This document shows, piece after piece, positions 1-8,150 of a DNA stretch of 8,150 nt; position 1 is the first letter of the stretch; each line of letters opens with the position of its first letter. Origin of the DNA: an uncultured Bacteroidota bacterium (GTDB taxonomy: Bacteria > Bacteroidota > Bacteroidia > Flavobacteriales > UA16); NCBI GenBank assembly GCA_902535565.1, contig CACAUH010000061.1:1-8150 (forward strand). The letters are read 5' to 3'. The notes beneath the pieces are model-generated. The model saw only the letters and a program-made list of their open reading frames with translations, did no database searches and was not told where the DNA came from. The position numbers were made by a program, and so were the translations under genes.

Positions 1-399
1 AAACCCCGATGCTAAAATTGTACCGTTTTGGATGTCGGGCGAATCCATGGCTCTAATTTCAAAACCCAGAGCAACAGTTGGCTCTGAAAACGTCCGGACT
101 TTGGTTCCAGTTAGAAAACCAGATTCGGTGACTGTGAAGGTTTGACCGCTGCTCGGAAAGGCTGCGAGTCCACTGTCAAAAAAACCGCTGGTGGGATAGG
201 TGGACAAGCCCACTTGACCTTCACACAGTTCAAGGCAATAGGCACCTTCGATTCCCGTTGTCCCGCCTATGCAGCCACAAGAAGGTGATAAGGTTGCATT
301 TCCCCCGCAGATGCCCGCGCAGTCGACGTTGTAGAGACAGCTTCCGTCTTCAAGAATTGCGCTTGGCGCATAATTACATGCTTCAGAGTCGGTGCAACC
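1..399 (-). repeat. Module F: Cys-rich unit plus start of beta-sandwich-like domain (partial)
   Basis: Residues 792-924. It opens with GCTDSEACNY and LEDGSC, then DCAGICGG and CGCIGGTTGIEG. The second domain starts with PSSGQTFTVTESGFLTG, equivalent to the GQSF starts of modules A and C, and is cut by the left edge before its second half. Confidence 0.7.
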
Positions 400-2772
400 A
401 TGACAACTTTCGATGGTTATTCCAGTATTTCCACCAATGCATCCGCATCCATCGTAAACCTCAGCTGTTCCTGCGCAGTCGCCGTTGCAATCTATTTCTG
501 CACAACTTCCATCGTCCATGTTGGCTAGCTGATCATAATTACATGCTTCGCTGTCCATGCAGCCCCAAATCAATTCACCTGGTTCGCCTGCCCGATAGAC
601 GATTCTAAAGGCCAAGTCATCATTGGATGCCGTTTCATTCCAAATGAGTCCTTGTCCATCAGGATAGGATGCTGTGCATGATTGATTGGCTCCACCCTCC
701 GTGAAGACGATGCTGTATGAGAAGCCCCCTTGCAGTGGAGTTTCCGAAAAAGTAAAAGTATGCCACCCATCAGGAGCGGATGGACATGCGACCGCTGTCC
801 CAGAGCGCCCCGAAGCACCTTCTATTTGGCCAGCCAAGGGACCATCCTCTCTGCGCAATTCAATGGATTGACTTGCTGTCAGGTCCAGATTAAAACTCGT
901 TGAGGTCAAAAATCCATCTTCGCTCACGTAAAAAGTCTGCCCGAATAAGTCGGATGAACAGGTCGAGGCGTCATTGGCAATGAGCAACTGTAGTTCTCCA
1001 TTGACACATTGCTCCTCAGGAATGCCCGTTTCGCCCCCAATACAGCCGCATTCAGGGTCGAGCGTTGCACTTCCACCACAGTCGCCATGGCAATCCAAAA
1101 ACAAACAGTTTCCATCATGTACTTCCGCGTCGGCATCGTAATTGCAGGCTGTATCATCCATGCAACCGAACGTGTTGGCCCCTGGGCATGTGAAAATGGC
1201 CATGGCCAAATCTGCATTTTCGTTGGCGTTGGTTTCCGTAAAGGCATGCCCGCCTGCGTAATCTGGAGAGCATGTGGCGAGGGCAACTCCGTCAATCAAT
1301 TCCATTGTGTATTGAACTCCACTCTGAACGAAAACATCATCAAAATTGAATGTGACGCAGTTGTATCCATTTAGATTGGAAAAAGTCAGGCAATTCGACA
1401 GGCCATCGCATGTGGCGGGAATCAATTGACTTGTTCCCAAAATTTCTCCGGCATTCCAGTCGGACGCACCGCCTTCTGCACACGGGTCTGAAGAGACGTG
1501 TCGTCGGAGCACCAATTGTGCATCTGTTGCGCAGCAGACTTTGAGCTCAATTTGTTTGATCGTTCCTGTGGTTTCTGCAGTAAAACTCTGGCCGGAAAGC
1601 AAGCCTGGGCTGCATGCTGCGGAGTTTGTAGAGATGACATCGGTCAGGCAGTCGTCGATGCAAGCGTTTTCATGAAACTCGGTGTTGCCTCCGACGCATT
1701 CGCCGCAATCGGATTGAATCGCTGTTCCCCCGCAGTCTCCATTGCAGTCTAGGTAGAGACAAGTGTTGTCATCCACCGTTGCGTTTAGATCGAAATTGCA
1801 CGCTTCGCTGTCTGTGCAACCAAAGCAGGATCCGGCGTCATCTTCGGAAGGGAGACATCCACAATTGGCATCGAGGAAAGCTGAACCTCCGCAGACATTG
1901 AAACAATCCAGTTGGGAGCAGGTCCCGTCGTCATAATCAGCGGAAGGGTTGAAATTGCATGCAGAAGATTCGGTGCAGCCGAAAATCAGGGTCTCGTCAG
2001 GGCAATGGTTTACCTCAAAGACAAGGTCGTGTTCGGGGTAAACTATCGAAGTGCTGTACGCCTGTCCATCGGGATAGGACAAGTTGCACCCACTTGCTGC
2101 TGCTCCTTCAACCAGATGCATGATGTATGTAGTTCCTCCAACAAGGGCCAAGTTGGAGAACTCGAATGTGTGTTCAATGTAGGAGGTGAATCCATTGTTA
2201 CTCACGAGGCATACCGACGCGTTGGTTGATGCGCTGTGGATAGCATTGGCTTCGCCAATAATGTTCCCTTGATTCCATTCATCATTGTTTCCGTTGAATG
2301 AGCGTATGACCAGTCGATTGTCTGTGCCGGTGCAGACGGCCAGTGTAATCGAATGAAGTATTCCGGTTTGCTGCACCGAGAATGATTGGCCCGTCAGTAG
2401 TCCTAAACCACAAGGTTGTTCGTAGAATGAGACCCTTTCTTGGTCGGGACAGATATTACAAATTGTAATGTCCAGACCTGTGTTGCCACCTATGCAAGTA
2501 CCACAGGAAGCCTCATAGGCGGTTCCCCCACAATCTCCGTGACAATCTTCTTGCAGGCATGAGCCGTCATCTGTAATCGCGGTGTCTAGTTCCTCACTGG
2601 GGTCGATGCCCTGTTTCATCATCTCAACGCGTCCGGCGTGAATGTCAAAACCGATGACGCGGATGTGCCGGGCAAAGGCAAGCGCAATGGGCAGGCCGAC
2701 ATAACCCAGGCCAATGACAGCCAGTGTGGCGTCTTGATCCAACAGCCGTTGGTGGAGATCAGGTTGGCTCAT
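1..2772 (-). CDS. Fused ORF: WbpA-like dehydrogenase N-terminus joined to modular Cys-rich secreted protein (3' partial)
   Basis: I translated the frame by hand from the ATG at 2770-2772 to base 1: 924 codons, no stop, running off the left edge. Residues 1-62 are a nucleotide-sugar dehydrogenase N-terminus: beta strand, GLGYVG (21-26), acidic D43 ending the second strand, and the WbpA-like GIDPSEEL (55-62). From about residue 65 the protein becomes six Cys-rich modules ending in DDGSC or a variant, four followed by a domain of about 140 residues rich in beta-type sequence. That part resembles large secreted or surface proteins of flavobacteria, which usually carry a C-terminal type IX sorting signal; any such signal would lie beyond the left edge. 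No signal peptide precedes the Cys-rich part, so the fused product would probably stay in the cytoplasm. The start overlaps the upstream acetyltransferase by 14 bases. The open frame is certain; whether this is one real gene is doubtful (see the junction entry). Confidence 0.75.
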   Translation of the reverse strand, partial: MSQPDLHQRLLDQDATLAVIGLGYVGLPIALAFARHIRVIGFDIHAGRVEMMKQGIDPSEELDTAITDDGSCLQEDCHGDCGGTAYEASCGTCIGGNTGLDITICNICPDQERVSFYEQPCGLGLLTGQSFSVQQTGILHSITLAVCTGTDNRLVIRSFNGNNDEWNQGNIIGEANAIHSASTNASVCLVSNNGFTSYIEHTFEFSNLALVGGTTYIMHLVEGAAASGCNLSYPDGQAYSTSIVYPEHDLVFEVNHCPDETLIFGCTESSACNFNPSADYDDGTCSQLDCFNVCGGSAFLDANCGCLPSEDDAGSCFGCTDSEACNFDLNATVDDNTCLYLDCNGDCGGTAIQSDCGECVGGNTEFHENACIDDCLTDVISTNSAACSPGLLSGQSFTAETTGTIKQIELKVCCATDAQLVLRRHVSSDPCAEGGASDWNAGEILGTSQLIPATCDGLSNCLTFSNLNGYNCVTFNFDDVFVQSGVQYTMELIDGVALATCSPDYAGGHAFTETNANENADLAMAIFTCPGANTFGCMDDTACNYDADAEVHDGNCLFLDCHGDCGGSATLDPECGCIGGETGIPEEQCVNGELQLLIANDASTCSSDLFGQTFYVSEDGFLTSTSFNLDLTASQSIELRREDGPLAGQIEGASGRSGTAVACPSAPDGWHTFTFSETPLQGGFSYSIVFTEGGANQSCTASYPDGQGLIWNETASNDDLAFRIVYRAGEPGELIWGCMDSEACNYDQLANMDDGSCAEIDCNGDCAGTAEVYDGCGCIGGNTGITIESCHGCTDSEACNYAPSAILEDGSCLYNVDCAGICGGNATLSPSCGCIGGTTGIEGAYCLELCEGQVGLSTYPTSGFFDSGLAAFPSSGQTFTVTESGFLTGTKVRTFSEPTVALGFEIRAMDSPDIQNGTILASGF
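400..564 (-). repeat. Module E: short Cys-rich unit without beta-sandwich
   Basis: Residues 737-791. It contains GCMDSEACNYDQ, MDDGSCAEIDCNGDCAG and CGCIGGNTGITIESC, followed directly by the next GCTDSEACNY. It is the second short unit; like module B it immediately precedes a unit with a beta domain, so short-long pairs occur twice (B-C and E-F). Confidence 0.7.
565..1167 (-). repeat. Module D: Cys-rich unit plus beta-sandwich-like domain
   Basis: Residues 536-736. It opens with GCMDDTACNYDADAEVHDGNC, then DCHGDCGGSA and CGCIGGETG. The following domain has DLFGQTFYVSEDGFLTS, HTFTFSETPLQGGFSYSIVF, CTASYPDGQGL and DLAFRIVY. The series 'TFTFS..L.GG..Y...F....G......DLAFR' is seen in many bacterial extracellular beta-sandwich domains; I recall the pattern but cannot name a family with confidence. 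Confidence 0.7.
1168..1821 (-). repeat. Module C: Cys-rich unit plus beta-sandwich-like domain
   Basis: Residues 318-535. It opens with GCTDSEACNF and VDDNTC, then DCNGDCGG and CGECVGGNT, an extra Cys pair (CIDDC), and the second domain beginning LLSGQSFTAETTGTIKQIEL. Later landmarks VTFNFDDVFVQSGVQYTMEL and DLAMAIF match those in modules A and D. It is the longest complete module, about 218 residues. An atypical CC pair sits in the KVCCATDAQLVL strand. Confidence 0.7.
1822..1980 (-). repeat. Module B: short Cys-rich unit without beta-sandwich
   Basis: Residues 265-317. It has the full opening GCTESSACNF, then DYDDGTC, DCFNVCGG and CGCLPSEDDAGSC, and the next module follows at once. At 53 residues it is about a quarter of a long module. 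The conserved acidic and Cys residues suggest disulfides and possibly calcium binding, which is an inference. Confidence 0.7.
1981..2580 (-). repeat. Module A: partial Cys-rich unit plus beta-sandwich-like domain
   Basis: Residues 65-264 of the fused frame. It starts inside a Cys-rich unit (DDGSCLQEDCHGDCGG, then CGTCIGGNTG); the expected GCTxxxACNY opening is missing because of the junction. A domain of about 140 residues follows. It opens with LLTGQSFSVQQTGILHSITL and later has HTFEFSNLALVGGTTYIMHL, CNLSYPDGQAY and DLVFEV. This spacing recurs in modules C and D and starts again in F. The strand-rich pattern suggests a beta-sandwich, possibly binding carbohydrate; I cannot assign a named family. 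Confidence 0.7.
2575..2605. other. Chimeric junction between wbpA and the Cys-rich repeat protein
   Basis: Reading the minus strand, GIDPSEEL still matches WbpA-type dehydrogenases, while AITDDGSC is already the end of a Cys-rich module. The breakpoint lies in the few codons between. The module consensus also contains a D-P-S/x-A stretch before DDGSC, so a short shared Asp-Pro-Ser segment could have guided recombination or misled an assembler. Hand counts give about 60% G+C at 2641-2700 and 58% at 2581-2640, against 43% at 2401-2460 and 45% at 1-60. No insertion sequence, inverted repeat or tRNA is visible at the joint. Confidence 0.7.
2587..2772 (-). pseudogene. wbpA: Truncated wbpA/tviB-type UDP-N-acetylglucosamine 6-dehydrogenase, N-terminus only
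   Basis: Only the first ~62 residues remain of an enzyme normally about 420-440 residues long. What is seen: LAVIGLGYVGLPIALAFA, the Rossmann NAD-binding start, then VIGFDI with the ribose-binding Asp, then RVEMMKQGIDPSEEL. The GIDPS(G/E)EL stretch is typical of the WbpA/TviB branch (UDP-GlcNAc or UDP-GalNAc 6-dehydrogenases) and differs from the NGEVPIYEP stretch of the Ugd enzyme encoded in the same operon. The central helix, the catalytic Cys region and the C-terminal sugar-binding domain are all missing, so the fragment cannot be an active dehydrogenase. Its position directly after a wbpD-type gene, with coupled translation, is where wbpA is expected. The family call rests on a short segment but the motifs are clear. 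Confidence 0.8.
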
Positions 2773-3370
2773 GATGGTGATATATTGGACGGACTTCGCC
2801 GTCTTGAAGGACATAGCATTCGCCTGACTCAGGGCATGTCGCTTGGTTGTTGGCGTCAAATTCGAGCCGATGCCCAAAGGCACTCATCCAACCGACTTGA
2901 CGGGCCGGATTGCCGAGCACAAGGGCGTATGGGGAGACGTTCTTCGTCACCACAGCCCCCGCTCCCACAAAGGAGAAAGGACCGATGTCGTGGCCACATA
3001 CAATGGTGGCATTGGCCCCGATGGACGCGCCTTGGCCCACTCGCGTTGTGGTGTGTTGGTCCCTCCGAACCACGGCACTGCGGGGGTTGCTGACATTGGT
3101 GAAAACGCAACTCGGGCCGAGAAACACATCGTCGTCGCACACGACTCCCGAGTAAAGACTCACGTTGTTCTGGACCTTGCAATTCCGGCCGAGTTTGACA
3201 CCAGGGCTGATGACCACATTTTGGCCGATGTTGCAGCGTTCCCCGAGGATGGCACCGGGCATGATGTGGCTGAAGTGCCAGATTTTAGTGCCGGCGCCAA
3301 TTGCACAGCCTTCGTCGATCACCGCCGTTTCGTGCGCAAACCAATCGTGTTGTCCAGCGTCGCCCATCAT
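2759..3370 (-). CDS. wbpD: WbpD-type UDP-sugar N-acetyltransferase (left-handed beta-helix)
   Basis: This 203-residue protein belongs to the hexapeptide acyltransferases. WbpD/WlbB enzymes acetylate the 3-amino group of UDP-2-acetamido-3-amino-2,3-dideoxy-glucuronate using acetyl-CoA, in the cytoplasm, for O-antigen or capsule sugars. Seen here: family-typical [10 protein letters not shown] near the N-terminus and KIWHFSHI, then the isoleucine/valine-rich hexapeptide ladder over residues ~17-150 ([59 protein letters not shown]). It ends in [12 protein letters not shown] and a short tail with [13 protein letters not shown]. The start is the ATG of an ATGA overlap with the upstream decarboxylase stop. 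Its own stop lies 14 bases inside the following wbpA remnant. Its likely partners are the WbpE-type aminotransferase in the operon and the truncated WbpA. The length is normal and the family call is strong; the exact substrate is inferred. Confidence 0.88.
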
Positions 3371-4350
3371 TTTCTGTAGGATGTGAAATCCTTGTGTTCG
3401 GTTTTCCTCAGGTCTTTCTCGGAAAGGCCCTTGAAGTATTCATAGGTGATGGCCAATCCCTCAGACCGTCCCACTTTTGGCTCCCAACCAAGAAGGTTCT
3501 TTGCCCTTGAGATATCAGGTCGTCGTTGCTTCGGGTCGTCCGTTGGAAGCGGTTTGAAGATGACCTTTTGGTCGGTTCCTGTCAGGGAAATGATTTCCTC
3601 TGCAAAATCCGCGATGCTGATTTCGTCTGGGTTTCCCACATTGACTGGACGAGATTCGTCGGACAGCAGCAGCCGATGGATGCCCTCAACCAGGTCGTCC
3701 ACATAGCAGAAGCTCCGCGTTTGACTTCCGTCTCCGAAGACAGTCAGGTCCTCTCCTCTCAAGGCTTGGCCGATGAAGGCGGGCAGAACACGTCCATCGT
3801 TCAGCCGCATGCGAGGTCCGTATGTGTTGAATATGCGTACGATGCGTGTTTCGAGACCGTGAAAGCTGTGGTAGGCCATGGTCATTGCCTCCTGGAATCG
3901 CTTCGCTTCATCATAGACACCTCTAGGTCCCACGGGGTTCACGTGTCCCCAGTATTCTTCGTGCTGGGGGTGAACCTCAGGGTCGCCATAGACCTCGCTT
4001 GTGCTCGCGATGAGCATGCGGGCTCCCTTGGCGCGGGCCAGACCCAGGCAGTTGTGCGCCCCTAGTGATCCCACTTTCAGCGTCTGGATGGGGATTTTGA
4101 GGTAGTCAATCGGGCTGGCCGGAGAGGCAAAGTGCAGGATGAAGTCGAGGTCTCCCTTGACGTGGATGAACTGGCTGACATCGTGGTGGTGGAACTCGAA
4201 ACGGTCGAGTCCCATCAGGTGCTCGATGTTTCTCAAGTCACCTGTGATGAGGTTGTCCATCCCCAACACATGGTGGCCCTCAGCGATGAATCGATCGCAG
4301 AGGTGAGAGCCCAGAAAACCCGCTGCACCGGTAATCAGAACGCGTTTCAT
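3367..4350 (-). CDS. UDP-glucuronate decarboxylase (UDP-xylose synthase), extended SDR family
   Basis: A 327-residue NAD-dependent epimerase/dehydratase-family enzyme. It matches UDP-xylose synthases, which oxidise and decarboxylate UDP-glucuronate to UDP-xylose in the cytoplasm. Seen: [17 protein letters not shown] with the TGxxGxxG nucleotide motif (7-14), [29 protein letters not shown] (116-129) with catalytic Thr/Ser, [20 protein letters not shown] with Y146 and K150 of the YxxxK pair, and [10 protein letters not shown]. The EYWGHVNP segment is characteristic of decarboxylases rather than plain epimerases. I chose the ATG at 4350 because the Rossmann strand starts there and it forms an ATGA overlap with the stop of the upstream dehydrogenase. 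A start at 4392 would add 14 residues with no domain value. Its substrate is the product of that neighbour, so the pair forms a two-step route. Confidence 0.92.
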
Positions 4351-5663
4351 TTCTCGTGTGATCCGCGACGTCCGATGGACGTGTATTCCCAACCGCGCTC
4401 GGCCATGTCCCCGACATCGTACAGGTTTCTTCCGTCAAACACGATGGGGTTGTTCAGCGCGTTTTTCATCCGGTCGAAATCCGGAGTCCGGAACACCTGC
4501 CATTCAGTGCAAATGAGCAGTGCATCTGCACCAGACAAGGCTGCATAGGAGTTCTCCGCAAACTCTATTCGGTTGCCTACTCGGCCGCGAACGTTGTCCA
4601 TGGCTTCCGGGTCAAATGCACACACCGTGGCCCCCGCGTCGAGCAGTTTTTCGATCATGTACAGTGCCGGTGCTTCTCTGATGTCGTCCGTCTCCGGCTT
4701 GAAGGCCAAGCCCCAAAGGGCGATTCTAACACCGTTGAGGTCTCCGTTAAACCGCTTCAGGATGGGGTCGAACAGAACGGTTTTTTGGGCCTCGTTGACT
4801 TCCATCACACTGGTGAGGATTTCAAACTTGTGATTCGCCTCACGTCCGCTTCGGTGAAGGGCCTGAACGTCCTTGGGGAAACAACTTCCACCGTATCCGA
4901 TTCCGGGAAAAAGGAAACGCGGTCCGATTCGTGTGTCCGTGCCGATTCCGCGGCGCACCTTGTCCACATCCGCTCCGACCTTCTCGCAGAAGTTGGCGAT
5001 CTCGTTCATGAAGGTGATCTTGGTCGCCAAGAAGGCATTGGCGGCGTATTTCGTGAGCTCAGCACTGCGCTCGTCCATGACGATCAGCGGGTTGCCTTGG
5101 CGGATGAACGGCTTGTAGAGCCGGGTCATCACCTCCTCTGCACGGTCGCTTCCGACACCAATGACCACACGGTCCGGCTTCAAAAAGTCGTTCACAGCAT
5201 AGCCTTCCCTCAGGAATTCCGGATTGGAGACGACATCAAAGTCGACGGTCGCGTGCGCAGCGACTGCGGCGGTCACCTTTTCAGCTGTCCCCACAGGCAC
5301 CGTACTCTTGTCCACGATGACCTTGTACTCGGTTATCATGCGGCCAAGCTGATTGGCCACACCCAGTACATAGCTCAAGTCTGCACTGCCATCTTCACCT
5401 GGAGGGGTGGGCAGGGCGAGGAAAATGATTTTCGCAGGCTCTACTGCTTCTGCGAGATCGGTGGTGAAACTGAGTCGGCCCGCTTGGATGTTCCGTTCAA
5501 ACAGGACATCGAGGTGCGGCTCGTAAATCGGCACCTCACCATTCCGCATTTTGTTCACTTTGGTCTCGTCGATGTCGACGCAGATGACGTCGTTTCCTGT
5601 TTCCGCAAAACAGGTTCCCGTTACAAGGCCAACATAGCCAGTGCCTATAACAGCAATTTTCAT
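4347..5663 (-). CDS. ugd: UDP-glucose 6-dehydrogenase
   Basis: A 438-residue enzyme, the normal length for the family. It oxidises UDP-glucose twice with NAD to UDP-glucuronate. Seen from the ATG at 5663: [15 protein letters not shown] (Rossmann GxGYVG, residues 7-12), the Asp of [16 protein letters not shown] (41-49), [34 protein letters not shown] (146-154), the central-helix residues K205 and N209 in [12 protein letters not shown], and [10 protein letters not shown] with catalytic Cys261 and D265. The C-terminal domain contains [17 protein letters not shown] longer reading from 5738 would add 25 residues of non-family sequence and overlap the upstream gene, so I rejected it. The start lies 29 bases after the aminotransferase stop, and the stop overlaps the decarboxylase start by 4 bases. 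Confidence 0.95.
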
Positions 5664-5692
5664 GACTTCTGGGGGGCGGAAATTGGTCGTTG

Positions 5693-6871
5693 TTAAAGAT
5701 ACGATGCCAAGCCCCGTCGGATGGCCTCGGCTACGCATTCCTGCTGGTCATTCGTCAATTCGGTGTGCATGGGAAGGCTCAACACACGGTGGGTCAGGTC
5801 CTCGGTAACCGGCAGTTCTGGCTGTTCACCGGGTAAATCGGTAAATGCAGCTTGATGGTGAATTGGTTTTGGATAATAAATGCCAAAAGGAATTCCTTCG
5901 GCCTGAAGTTGCGAGGCCAAGTGGTCTCGGAGCCCAGGCCCATCGCCTTTTTCGCCCAGTTTGATTGTGTATTGGTGGAACACATGACGGGAGCGCGGAT
6001 GGCGGTAGGGTAGGGCAATTTTCGGGTGATCCCCGAGCAGGGCATCATATCGGTCGGCTGCTTTTCTGCGCGCTGCATTATAGTCTGCCAGGTGGGGAAG
6101 TTTGACTTCGAGAATGGCCGCTTGAATGCTGTCAAGGCGGCTGTTCATCCCGATGATTTCGTGTTCGTAACGCTGTTTCGACCCGTGGTTGCATATCATG
6201 CGAAGGCGCTGGGCAAGGCTGGCGTCGCGGGTAAAGCAGGCCCCTCCATCTCCGTATGCACCGAGGTTTTTGGAGGGGAAAAAGCTGGTGGTGCCAATCG
6301 TCCCCATGGTTCCAGCGGATTGCCAGACGTCGTCGGGAGATTGCCAGGCGGAACCGATGGCCTGTGCCGTGTCCTCTACAATGGCGAGTCCGTGTTGTTT
6401 GGCCAACGCCTGGAGGGTGGTCATGTCGGCGCATTGTCCGTAGAGATGAACCGGCATAATGACCTTGGTCCGGCGGGTTATGGCCTTGGCAACGGCGTCG
6501 GGGTCGAGCGTAAAGGTCAGCGGGTCCACATCGACCATGACGGGCGTCAGGCGCAGGAGGTGTATGACCTCCACGGTCGAGATAAACGTGAAGGATGGTG
6601 TAATGACCTCATCACCCGGCTGAAGGTCCAGTGCCATGAGGGCTGCTTGCAGGGCATCAGTGCCATTGGCGCAGGGCACAACGTGGATGGGATACGACTC
6701 TGTGTGGCCCAGCCACACGCCGAGTGCAGAGGTGAAGTCTTTTACGGCGGGGCCATTGATGAACTGTCCTGATTGGACCACATCGAGTACGGCTTTGTCG
6801 ATTTCAGATTGAATCCGCGCGTATTGTCCGCGGACGTCAACCATGTGCAGGGTGGGGGAGTCGTCGGCCAT
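5693..6871 (-). CDS. wbpE: WbpE-type PLP-dependent sugar aminotransferase (DegT/DnrJ/EryC1)
   Basis: A 392-residue fold-type I aminotransferase. WbpE-type members transfer an amino group from glutamate to a 3-keto UDP-N-acetylglucosaminuronate, giving the substrate of WbpD. Seen: MVDVRGQYARIQSEID at the N-terminus, SGQFINGP (34-41), CANGTDALQAAL (67-78), PGDEVITPSFTFISTVE (85-101), PVHLYGQCADM (140-150), VEDTAQAIG with the PLP-ring Asp167, FFPSKNLGAYGDGG with the Schiff-base Lys201, and MNSRLDSIQAAIL. The C-terminal part, with GIYYPKPIH and LSLPMH, is typical of sugar aminotransferases. It is the first gene of the operon. The start is uncertain: ATG 6871 is preferred; GTG 6916 would add 15 residues, and ATG 6844 would begin directly at MVDVRGQY. 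No clear ribosome-binding site separates them. Other 3-ketosugar aminotransferases remain possible, but the WbpD neighbour supports WbpE. Confidence 0.9.
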   Translation of the reverse strand: MADDSPTLHMVDVRGQYARIQSEIDKAVLDVVQSGQFINGPAVKDFTSALGVWLGHTESYPIHVVPCANGTDALQAALMALDLQPGDEVITPSFTFISTVEVIHLLRLTPVMVDVDPLTFTLDPDAVAKAITRRTKVIMPVHLYGQCADMTTLQALAKQHGLAIVEDTAQAIGSAWQSPDDVWQSAGTMGTIGTTSFFPSKNLGAYGDGGACFTRDASLAQRLRMICNHGSKQRYEHEIIGMNSRLDSIQAAILEVKLPHLADYNAARRKAADRYDALLGDHPKIALPYRHPRSRHVFHQYTIKLGEKGDGPGLRDHLASQLQAEGIPFGIYYPKPIHHQAAFTDLPGEQPELPVTEDLTHRVLSLPMHTELTNDQQECVAEAIRRGLASYL

Positions 6872-7003
6872 CAGGTTTGGCGAAGATACCGTCCACTGTG
6901 ACTCGTCAATTCCCACAAACTTCAGCCATTTTCCCTGGCATTTTTTCGATTAAAATGTATAATAAATAGATAAAATGTTGTATTTTGTGGGTTCAGATTC
7001 GTC
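6872..7003. promoter_or_regulatory. AT-rich divergent intergenic region, probable promoters for operon and small exported gene
   Basis: The two genes on either side point away from each other, so promoters for both should lie here. The core at about 6948-6990 is strikingly AT-rich compared with its surroundings. On the minus strand TACATTTT matches 7 of 8 positions of the Bacteroidota -7 element TAnnTTTG. On the plus strand GTATTTTG, just upstream of the small gene, is a near-match. I see no convincing -33 TTTG at the right spacing on either strand, so the exact promoters are not resolved. Confidence 0.4.
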
Positions 7004-7483
7004 ATGCACGCTATTTCCCGCTTGTCCCTTCGCGCCGCATTTGCGCTCCTCATTTGCCTCTTGACCGGACCCGGTCACGCGCAAGCTTTCAATCCCGACG
7101 CCAATGGAGACGGGCAGGTCGGTGCTGGCGACGTTCTCGCTGTCCTTGCCGTTTATGGTCTTCCCTATGATGCCACTGACTTCGGACCGAGCATCTTGCA
7201 CTTTGACCCCGATACCACGGCCTCCCTTCCTTTGGGTTACGATCTGTACATCGCAGAGGACTTCACCTTTCCCTACTTGTATGTGACTGTGCCAGATGGT
7301 GAATTCCCCGGTCAGTCCTTCAGGATGGCCGTCGAAAAGCAGCCCGATATGGACGACCAGCAGGTGTACTTGCAGGACACCCAAGGAAACTGGTTGGCCT
7401 TGGCCCGTCAATTTGAAACCAACGGCAGGTACGCTGAGTTGGTGTGGACGGGCACGCGTTGGGTCTCCTCGAGCTTGGATTGA
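7004..7483 (+). CDS. Small exported protein with a dockerin-like calcium-binding loop, function unknown
   Basis: A 159-residue protein. Residues 1-28 are a clear signal peptide: R6 and R10, a hydrophobic core AAFALLICLL, then cleavage after GHAQA. The Cys at 18 is not in a lipobox (LLIC lacks the small residue before Cys), so it is probably not a lipoprotein. Immediately after cleavage comes NPDANGDGQVGAGDVLAVLAVYG (split at positions 30-43 and 44-52). Residues 32-43 form a 12-residue EF-hand or dockerin-type loop with D32, N34, D36 and D43. Single half-dockerin motifs of this kind are common near the mature N-terminus of flavobacterial exported proteins. Residues ~60-159 have alternating hydrophobic sequence (YDLYIAEDFTFPYLYVTVPDG, ending ELVWTGTRWVSSS) that I do not recognise; it may be beta-rich. 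There is no visible C-terminal sorting domain. It is transcribed away from the sugar operon, so a shared role is not implied. Confidence 0.75.
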   Translation: MHAISRLSLRAAFALLICLLTGPGHAQAFNPDANGDGQVGAGDVLAVLAVYGLPYDATDFGPSILHFDPDTTASLPLGYDLYIAEDFTFPYLYVTVPDGEFPGQSFRMAVEKQPDMDDQQVYLQDTQGNWLALARQFETNGRYAELVWTGTRWVSSSLD

Positions 7484-7528
7484 AAACCGGTTGCGAGTCT
7501 TCCGTTTTGTTTTCGACCTTCGCCCCAT

Positions 7529-7612
7529 GCCCGGATGGTGGAATTGGTAGACACGACAGACTTAAAATCTGTTGGCCCTAGGGCCGTGCGGGTTCAAGTC
7601 CCGCTCCGGGTA
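7529..7612 (+). tRNA. tRNA-Leu (anticodon UAA)
   Basis: The cloverleaf folds by eye. The acceptor stem GCCCGGA (7529-7535) pairs with TCCGGGT (7605-7611), with a G-U first pair and discriminator A at 7612. The D-arm contains GAATTGGTAGACA. The anticodon stem is ACAGA/TCTGT around loop CTTAAAA, anticodon TAA at 7563-7565. The long variable arm GGCCC-TA-GGGCC is the class II hallmark of leucine tRNAs. The T-arm is GCGGG-TTCAAGT-CCCGC. CCA is not encoded, as is usual in Bacteroidota. Confidence 0.96.
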
Positions 7613-7641
7613 CACTTACTTTCCAGCGTTGACGGGGGGTT

Positions 7642-7661
7642 GAGAGGGGTTTGACCCTCTT
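7642..7661. repeat. Hairpin downstream of the tRNA, possible weak terminator
   Basis: AGAGGG (7643-7648) pairs with CCCTCT (7655-7660) around the 6-base loop GTTTGA, with an extra G-U pair outside. It lies 30 bases after the tRNA 3' end. What follows is TGTGTGT rather than a run of T, so it is not a canonical rho-independent terminator. Confidence 0.4.
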
Positions 7662-7727
7662 GTGTGTCATCATCTGTGGCACATACTTACTAACAGCCCC
7701 CCTCAGCGCTCATTTTCCCCGTACTCC

Positions 7728-7830
7728 GGTACGCTGGTACGCTTTTTGGCTGAAACCCCAGTAAACACTGGGCAAAAGGTGCGTACCGCAGACCGTACCG
7801 GACCGTACCGCGGTACGCTTTTGGTACGAT
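7728..7830. repeat. Cluster of seven GGTACG/CGTACC motifs, possible protein-binding array
   Basis: GGTACG occurs at 7728, 7736, 7812 and 7823, and its complement CGTACC at 7782, 7794 and 7804. The first two are an exact 8-base tandem (GGTACGCT twice, 7728-7743). The middle two sit in an exact 10-base tandem (GACCGTACCG twice, 7791-7810). 7804-7817 is a perfect 14-base palindrome, CGTACCGCGGTACG. By chance one would expect about 0.05 copies of this hexamer (either strand) in 100 bases. Such clustering, with mixed direct and inverted copies, fits operator, iteron or packaging-site DNA. It ends 2 bases before the stop codon of the terminase gene. Confidence 0.75.
7757..7772. repeat. Hairpin CCCAGT-AAAC-ACTGGG within the repeat cluster
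   Basis: A perfect 6-base inverted repeat with a 4-base loop, lying in the 40-base gap between the first two and the remaining GGTACG/CGTACC motifs. No T-run follows on either strand, so it is not a typical terminator. It may be part of the same regulatory or recombination site. Confidence 0.4.
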
Positions 7831-7831
7831 T

Positions 7832-8150
7832 TCAGCAGAAGTCAGGGTCGAACGCATCGATGTTCAGCGCGTCCACAGCCTTCTTCGCTTTTACCGTCAG
7901 CCCCAGCTCCTTCAGGCAGGAGAAGTATTTGTACCTCGTGTCCTGGAGGCATTTATGCGCTGGGTGTTCGCGGACCATCTTGTTGCCTTCCCTGCTCACG
8001 GTGGTGTACGTGATGCCCTCCAGGTCAACGGTCGATTGCAGCTGTTCCAATTCGTGGCGCAGTGTTGCGGCCATGTCCAGCAGCTCATTCAGCCCCACGG
8101 TATTGATGCCGGCTGAATTGCAGTCTTGAGCGAGTTGTTCGCGGTATTGT
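7832..8150 (-). CDS. Phage terminase small subunit, P27 family (5' partial, enters from the right edge)
   Basis: The minus frame is open from the right edge to a TGA at 7832-7834, giving 105 residues of the C-terminal part. The GTG at 8098 is probably an internal Val codon, because the frame stays open beyond it. The stretch GITYTTVSREGNKMVREHPA followed by KCLQDTRYKYFSCLKELGL and TVKAKK has the layout of P27-type small terminases: an extended basic segment ending in HPA, then an amphipathic helix and LKELGLT. The small subunit recognises phage DNA and hands it to the large subunit for packaging. No large subunit lies downstream on the same strand, where it is often found; instead the GGTACG cluster and tRNA-Leu follow. 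The call is from pattern recognition, fairly firm for the family and open as to element type. Confidence 0.7.
   Translation of the reverse strand, partial: QYREQLAQDCNSAGINTVGLNELLDMAATLRHELEQLQSTVDLEGITYTTVSREGNKMVREHPAHKCLQDTRYKYFSCLKELGLTVKAKKAVDALNIDAFDPDFC

Follow-up and report, generated by a model that had tools for sequence, protein, structure and literature searches.

An in-frame join of a nucleotide sugar dehydrogenase start and a repeat-protein interior in Bacteroidota DNA, most likely not a real gene

In the closest relatives of the locus described here, the gene that follows the dehydrogenase is rmlB, whereas the earlier note had expected wbpB. The order of an intact dehydrogenase, rmlB and a PHP phosphatase was observed in all five loci compared (L001, L002, L107, L132 and L136), where the gene after rmlB in L001 is PHP-type by our own reading. 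The intact dehydrogenase of L001 passes TIGR03026 at 366.9 bits. With NF011729 (TviB) this protein reaches 474.5 bits, the best of seven families but under the curated cut-off of 592; any substrate assignment is therefore tentative, and WbpA-type is a loose label. The dehydrogenase was full length and open in 10 of 16 relatives searched; in the other six, the gene reaches a contig end (G087 and G093), is a fragment (G088), matches at only 38% (G097), has no match (G099) or lies in two pieces with two stops (G100). In G100 (L117 and L093) frame breaks are present both in the dehydrogenase gene and in the repeat gene, and these may be sequencing errors of that assembly. In three more distant loci (L021, L039 and L048) the dehydrogenase starts ∼1 kb past the acetyltransferase, which leaves space for a further gene, possibly wbpB; L001 and L002 are without this gap.

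The second part of the locus belongs to a family of large Cys-rich repeat proteins, for which P0001, P0002 and P0003 serve as references. These three start with a signal-peptide-like stretch, as seen from their sequence and from a crude hydrophobicity and charge check (11-residue windows over 45 residues), which is not a signal-peptide predictor. A relative of P0001 (E 1e-60) was identified in 14 of the 114 genomes of the family to which the genome of L001 belongs. L001 itself encodes a protein of 1684 aa in which GCTD...DDGSC modules are numerous, and its gene (L001:650-5704) directly adjoins tRNA-Leu.

Joins between unrelated segments are known from multiple displacement amplification (MDA). 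According to PMC1855051, of the chimeras whose segments lie more than 10 kb apart, only 34.8% of the inverted and 27.6% of the direct ones share at least 2 bp; since few such joins share two or more bases, a chimeric molecule needs no overlap.

Two gene fragments in one open frame

The window, a stretch of 8,150 nt, apparently comes from a marine Bacteroidota bacterium. A single stop-free frame with an ATG at position 2772 extends on its minus strand from upstream of this codon as far as the left end of the window. Read from this ATG, the frame comprises 924 residues, of which the first 64 codons are dehydrogenase and the rest is repeat-protein interior. The following features were assigned.

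1..2580, minus strand: Cys-rich repeat-protein interior, beta-sandwich domains alternating with GC(T/M)D...DDGSC modules (P0001 alignment)
2578..2586, minus strand: breakpoint zone GACACCGCG, about the maximum sequence the parents could share
2581..2772, minus strand: start of a WbpA/TviB-type nucleotide sugar dehydrogenase, 64 codons that cover part of the NAD-binding domain (PF03721, L001, P0122)
2759..3370, minus strand: hexapeptide-repeat sugar acetyltransferase, WbpD-like by our reading, upstream neighbour of wbpA (PF00132; 86% to L001)
3367..4347, minus strand: NAD-dependent sugar epimerase/dehydratase, UDP-xylose synthase-like by our reading (PF01370/PF16363 on 3367-4392; 96% to L001)
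4347..5663, minus strand: UDP-glucose 6-dehydrogenase-like protein (TIGR03026, 456.5 bits, cut-off 189.8; 95% to L001)
5693..6871, minus strand: DegT/DnrJ-family sugar aminotransferase (PF01041, E 1.2e-115 on 5693-6916; 91% to L001)
7529..7613, plus strand: tRNA-Leu(TAA) (ARAGORN)

L001 is the nearest relative, with 88% DNA identity over 2581-7614, and this similarity begins at 2581. Residues 1-68 are 93% identical to its intact gene, and P0122 is 95% identical to the dehydrogenase part over 63 residues. The earlier note had counted ∼62 wbpA codons, which is corrected here to 64, residue 64 (Thr) being encoded by 2583-2581. The N-terminal domain PF03721 is matched only at positions 2-48 of 187 (residues 16-61), with 28.9 bits just over the Pfam cut-off of 27, PF00984 and PF03720 were not found in the fusion by Pfam, and TIGR03026 gave 37.6 bits, below the cut-off of 189.8 for a complete dehydrogenase.

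Residues 64-922 are 71% identical to residues 243-1100 of the 1447 residues of P0001, and the repeat part is 66% identical to P0002 and 62% to P0003. No stop is present in its 860 codons, which encode 66 Cys, and a pattern count found the Cys-rich module at least five times and the GQSF/GQTF motif four times. The alternation of beta-sandwich domains and Cys-rich modules typical of P0001 was found in the window, and the N-terminal region with a signal-peptide-like start was absent: dehydrogenase residues precede the join, and the repeat protein lacks its N-terminus and has its C-terminus outside the window. A structure model of this part (mean pLDDT 84.2, pTM 0.41) consists mostly of a chain of beta-domains, and single modelled domains resemble baseplate or lectin-like beta sandwiches. 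The repeat protein may have an adhesin-like role at the surface.

The join of two unrelated gene fragments is unmistakable and clear beyond chance. Pfam and the limits of protein and DNA similarity confirmed the earlier description of an unrelated secreted repeat protein joined in frame to the start of wbpA, and Pfam, the alignments and the motif and charge check likewise bore out that the dehydrogenase is truncated and that the repeat protein lacks a start of its own. The in-frame state of the join is unremarkable. In 40,000 simulated joins, with L001, L002 and L132 as dehydrogenase side and L133, L134 and L135 as repeat side, both sides stayed open for at least 60 codons in 30%, and the right side reached at least 250 open codons in 15% and at least 850 in 9.7%. 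Since 30% of random joins are open, the in-frame reading needs no selection.

The frame, open throughout, could also be a real functional fusion that is expressed with the sugar operon from the dehydrogenase start and uses the hydrophobic first strand-helix as a makeshift export signal. Residues 17-34 are indeed hydrophobic and end in Ala-Phe-Ala, and their Kyte-Doolittle peak is 2.15, compared with 2.25-2.59 in P0001-P0003. However, the charge before the hydrophobic stretch is -2, compared with +2, +1, and 0 in P0001-P0003 (a crude measure), and the repeat protein has lost ∼240 residues from its N-terminus. A functional fusion is considered very unlikely. Even less credit is given to a genuine fusion at the strain level that would place the truncated surface protein under the sugar-operon promoter and the dehydrogenase start, with the hydrophobic segment exporting it and the cell switching from one surface component to another.

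The repeat part of the window has a GC3 of 0.483 and a total GC of 0.502, compared with 0.641 and 0.573 in the wbpA part. A composition step as proof of two organisms was rejected, because GC3 is also lower in the repeat gene than in wbpA within all eight relatives that have both genes examined (repeat gene/wbpA: G100 0.538/0.600, G087 0.689/0.738, G094 0.689/0.851, G095 0.506/0.665, G092 0.598/0.736, G093 0.633/0.693, G089 0.526/0.872 and G096 0.636/0.696). The total GC of the repeat gene is lower than that of wbpA in three of the eight (G100, G095 and G089) and higher in five.

The breakpoint and the search for the same join

The sequence at the join reads GAG GAA CTA GAC ACC GCG ATT ACA GAT GAC GGC, and GACACCGCG occurs once in the window. 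In 53 of 53 distinct dehydrogenase loci, counted after matches ending before residue 55 and identical stretches had been dropped, the fifth residue after EEL is Phe and the one before it Ala, Asp, Glu or Asn; at these two places the window has Thr and Ile, respectively. On the other side, all 10 repeat proteins printed carry Tyr or Phe followed by Asp, Asn or Ser at positions -7/-6 from DDGSC, where the window has Glu-Leu. As these residues differ, the parents could share no more than about GACACCGCG plus a base or two. For most codons this would be 9 nt, rarely one or two more (one Asn among the 53 loci, one Ser among the 10 proteins), so about ten, a limit that is derived from relatives and not from the DNA of the true parents. 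Protein similarity to the closest repeat proteins begins at residue 63-65, with the P0003 alignment starting from residue 46 in one comparison, and DNA similarity to the repeat copy of G100 stops at 2570.

The earlier note had proposed recombination through a short Asp-Pro-Ser coding segment. This crossover was rejected, since the dehydrogenase coding extends past Asp-Pro-Ser through EELDT; in addition, the repeat gene of G100 has, by our reading, DPSAIS at the corresponding place.

An overlap of up to about ten nt would fit illegitimate recombination, and the join may be a real recent rearrangement in one strain, a large deletion, inversion or translocation via few-base microhomology, which would have disrupted both genes and left behind an in-frame remnant without function. 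Polysaccharide clusters recombine often, which also speaks for such an event. On the other hand, such an event would have had to break two genes together. The inverted repeats within 2300-2900 number only three, all short (10-13 nt) and imperfect, and no transposase or recombinase was found by Pfam in the seven frames scanned. A dehydrogenase match was present in 13 of the 14 family genomes with the repeat gene (including G097 with only 38% and the fragment in G088) and always on a different contig, which counts in favor of a chimera; as many contigs are short, this is weak evidence for distance except in G092, G095 and G100. With contigs and orientation as in G095, G092 or G100, a simple deletion would have to remove at least 49, 64 or 91 kb, respectively.

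The earlier note had advised looking for the same join in related genomes, and it was not found in the genomes and proteins searched. In 399 genomes drawn from the larger order (E 1e-20, at most 11 candidates scored per genome), none of the 82 matches, in 81 genomes, spanned the join: matches on the dehydrogenase side end by residue 73 and the sole match on the repeat side (G100) begins at residue 64. A protein search with residues 1-100, which took in proteins of about 508-1617 residues, considered 140 candidates and gave 10 matches, none of which aligns before residue 63-65. No join-spanning protein was found among the best 120 of 402 proteins, a comparison in which only the candidates sharing most words were scored, and the viral collection does not contain the exact junction of 72 bases. 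The absence of a second copy in the order genomes, the protein search and the viral collection speaks against a real rearrangement, and the absence of a relative with the fusion in the former two also against a functional fusion.

The right flank of the window

At 7004-7483 on the plus strand, a 159-aa frame with a signal-like start and, by our reading, a dockerin-like segment was observed. It has no Pfam match and is conserved at 94% in L001, 74% in L002 and 73% in L132. Similarity to these three loci ends at 7614 in all cases, at the 3' end of the tRNA-Leu. About 220 bp past tRNA-Leu(TAA), a terminase-small-subunit-like frame lies on the opposite strand (PF05119; region 7529-8149). With TIGR01558 it reaches 25.3 bits, below the cut-off of 45.6, and its phage matches are 26-28% identical. 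Relatives of it were found in 3 of the 114 family genomes, and it is absent at that place in L001 and L002. The region 7529-8149 is probably the end or a remnant of a phage-type element integrated at tRNA-Leu.

In G095, a relative of the last 45 residues of the terminase-like frame (L132:11104-11238, 64%) is located at the same place, and after this partial relative comes the repeat protein which in L001 lies next to the tRNA. The arrangement in G095 supports the right end of the window as real chromosome. An authentic right flank is in favor of a real rearrangement and against a chimera, since the synteny with G095 indicates that the contig is not scrambled throughout. Past the terminase remnant, L132 carries a relative of the 1684-aa repeat protein of L001, with 69% identity over 595 residues.

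Origin of the join and comparison with known systems

The earlier note named recombination and a chimera as possible origins and held the chimera to be no less likely; the evidence points more to the chimera. We regard the fusion as probably a chimeric join made in the library or the assembly, and not a gene; the join would then have arisen outside the cell. One parent is the 5' end of the dehydrogenase gene from a conserved polysaccharide cluster, and the other is the interior of a large secreted repeat-protein gene located elsewhere in relatives, both ordinary genes of the same bacterial family. Both parents are intact in relatives, no recurrence was found, neither half is decayed and two genes are broken together, all of which favors a chimera. 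Because the shared sequence is at most about ten nt and assemblers use a k of at least 21, a simple collision of k-mers is an unlikely cause, and this limit argues against the commonest type of assembly error. The likelier source would be a chimeric DNA molecule or read (from library ligation, whole-genome amplification or a long-read chimera) retained in a contig of low coverage. Against a chimera it also counts that parents from one bacterial family could share a genome. Furthermore, a private real rearrangement would be invisible, since the genomes found do not include the species of the window, the closest of them having 88% DNA identity. Such a rearrangement is given a smaller, though appreciable, probability.

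The fusion is most likely no gene, and its predicted protein should not be treated as a genuine product. None of the matches found in the genomes searched carries the fused frame, and automatic annotation could label it a nucleotide sugar dehydrogenase or a new fusion family, which calls for a data-quality warning. If the join were real, a sugar pathway would have been disabled and a surface protein separated from its N-terminus in a single event.

Compared with L001 (Crocinitomicaceae MAG SP3009, PBIE01000025.1), the window has the upstream gene order in common, but in L001 the dehydrogenase is full length (437 aa) and followed by rmlB, whereas matching in the window ends after residue 64. 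The window part shares the same alternating modules with P0001 and its relatives (P0002, P0003 and others), but P0001 has its own signal-peptide-like start and 242 residues where the window has dehydrogenase residues. The join resembles the MDA chimeras of PMC1855051 in that unrelated segments are connected with little or no shared sequence, and MDA is only one possible source of the join in the window.
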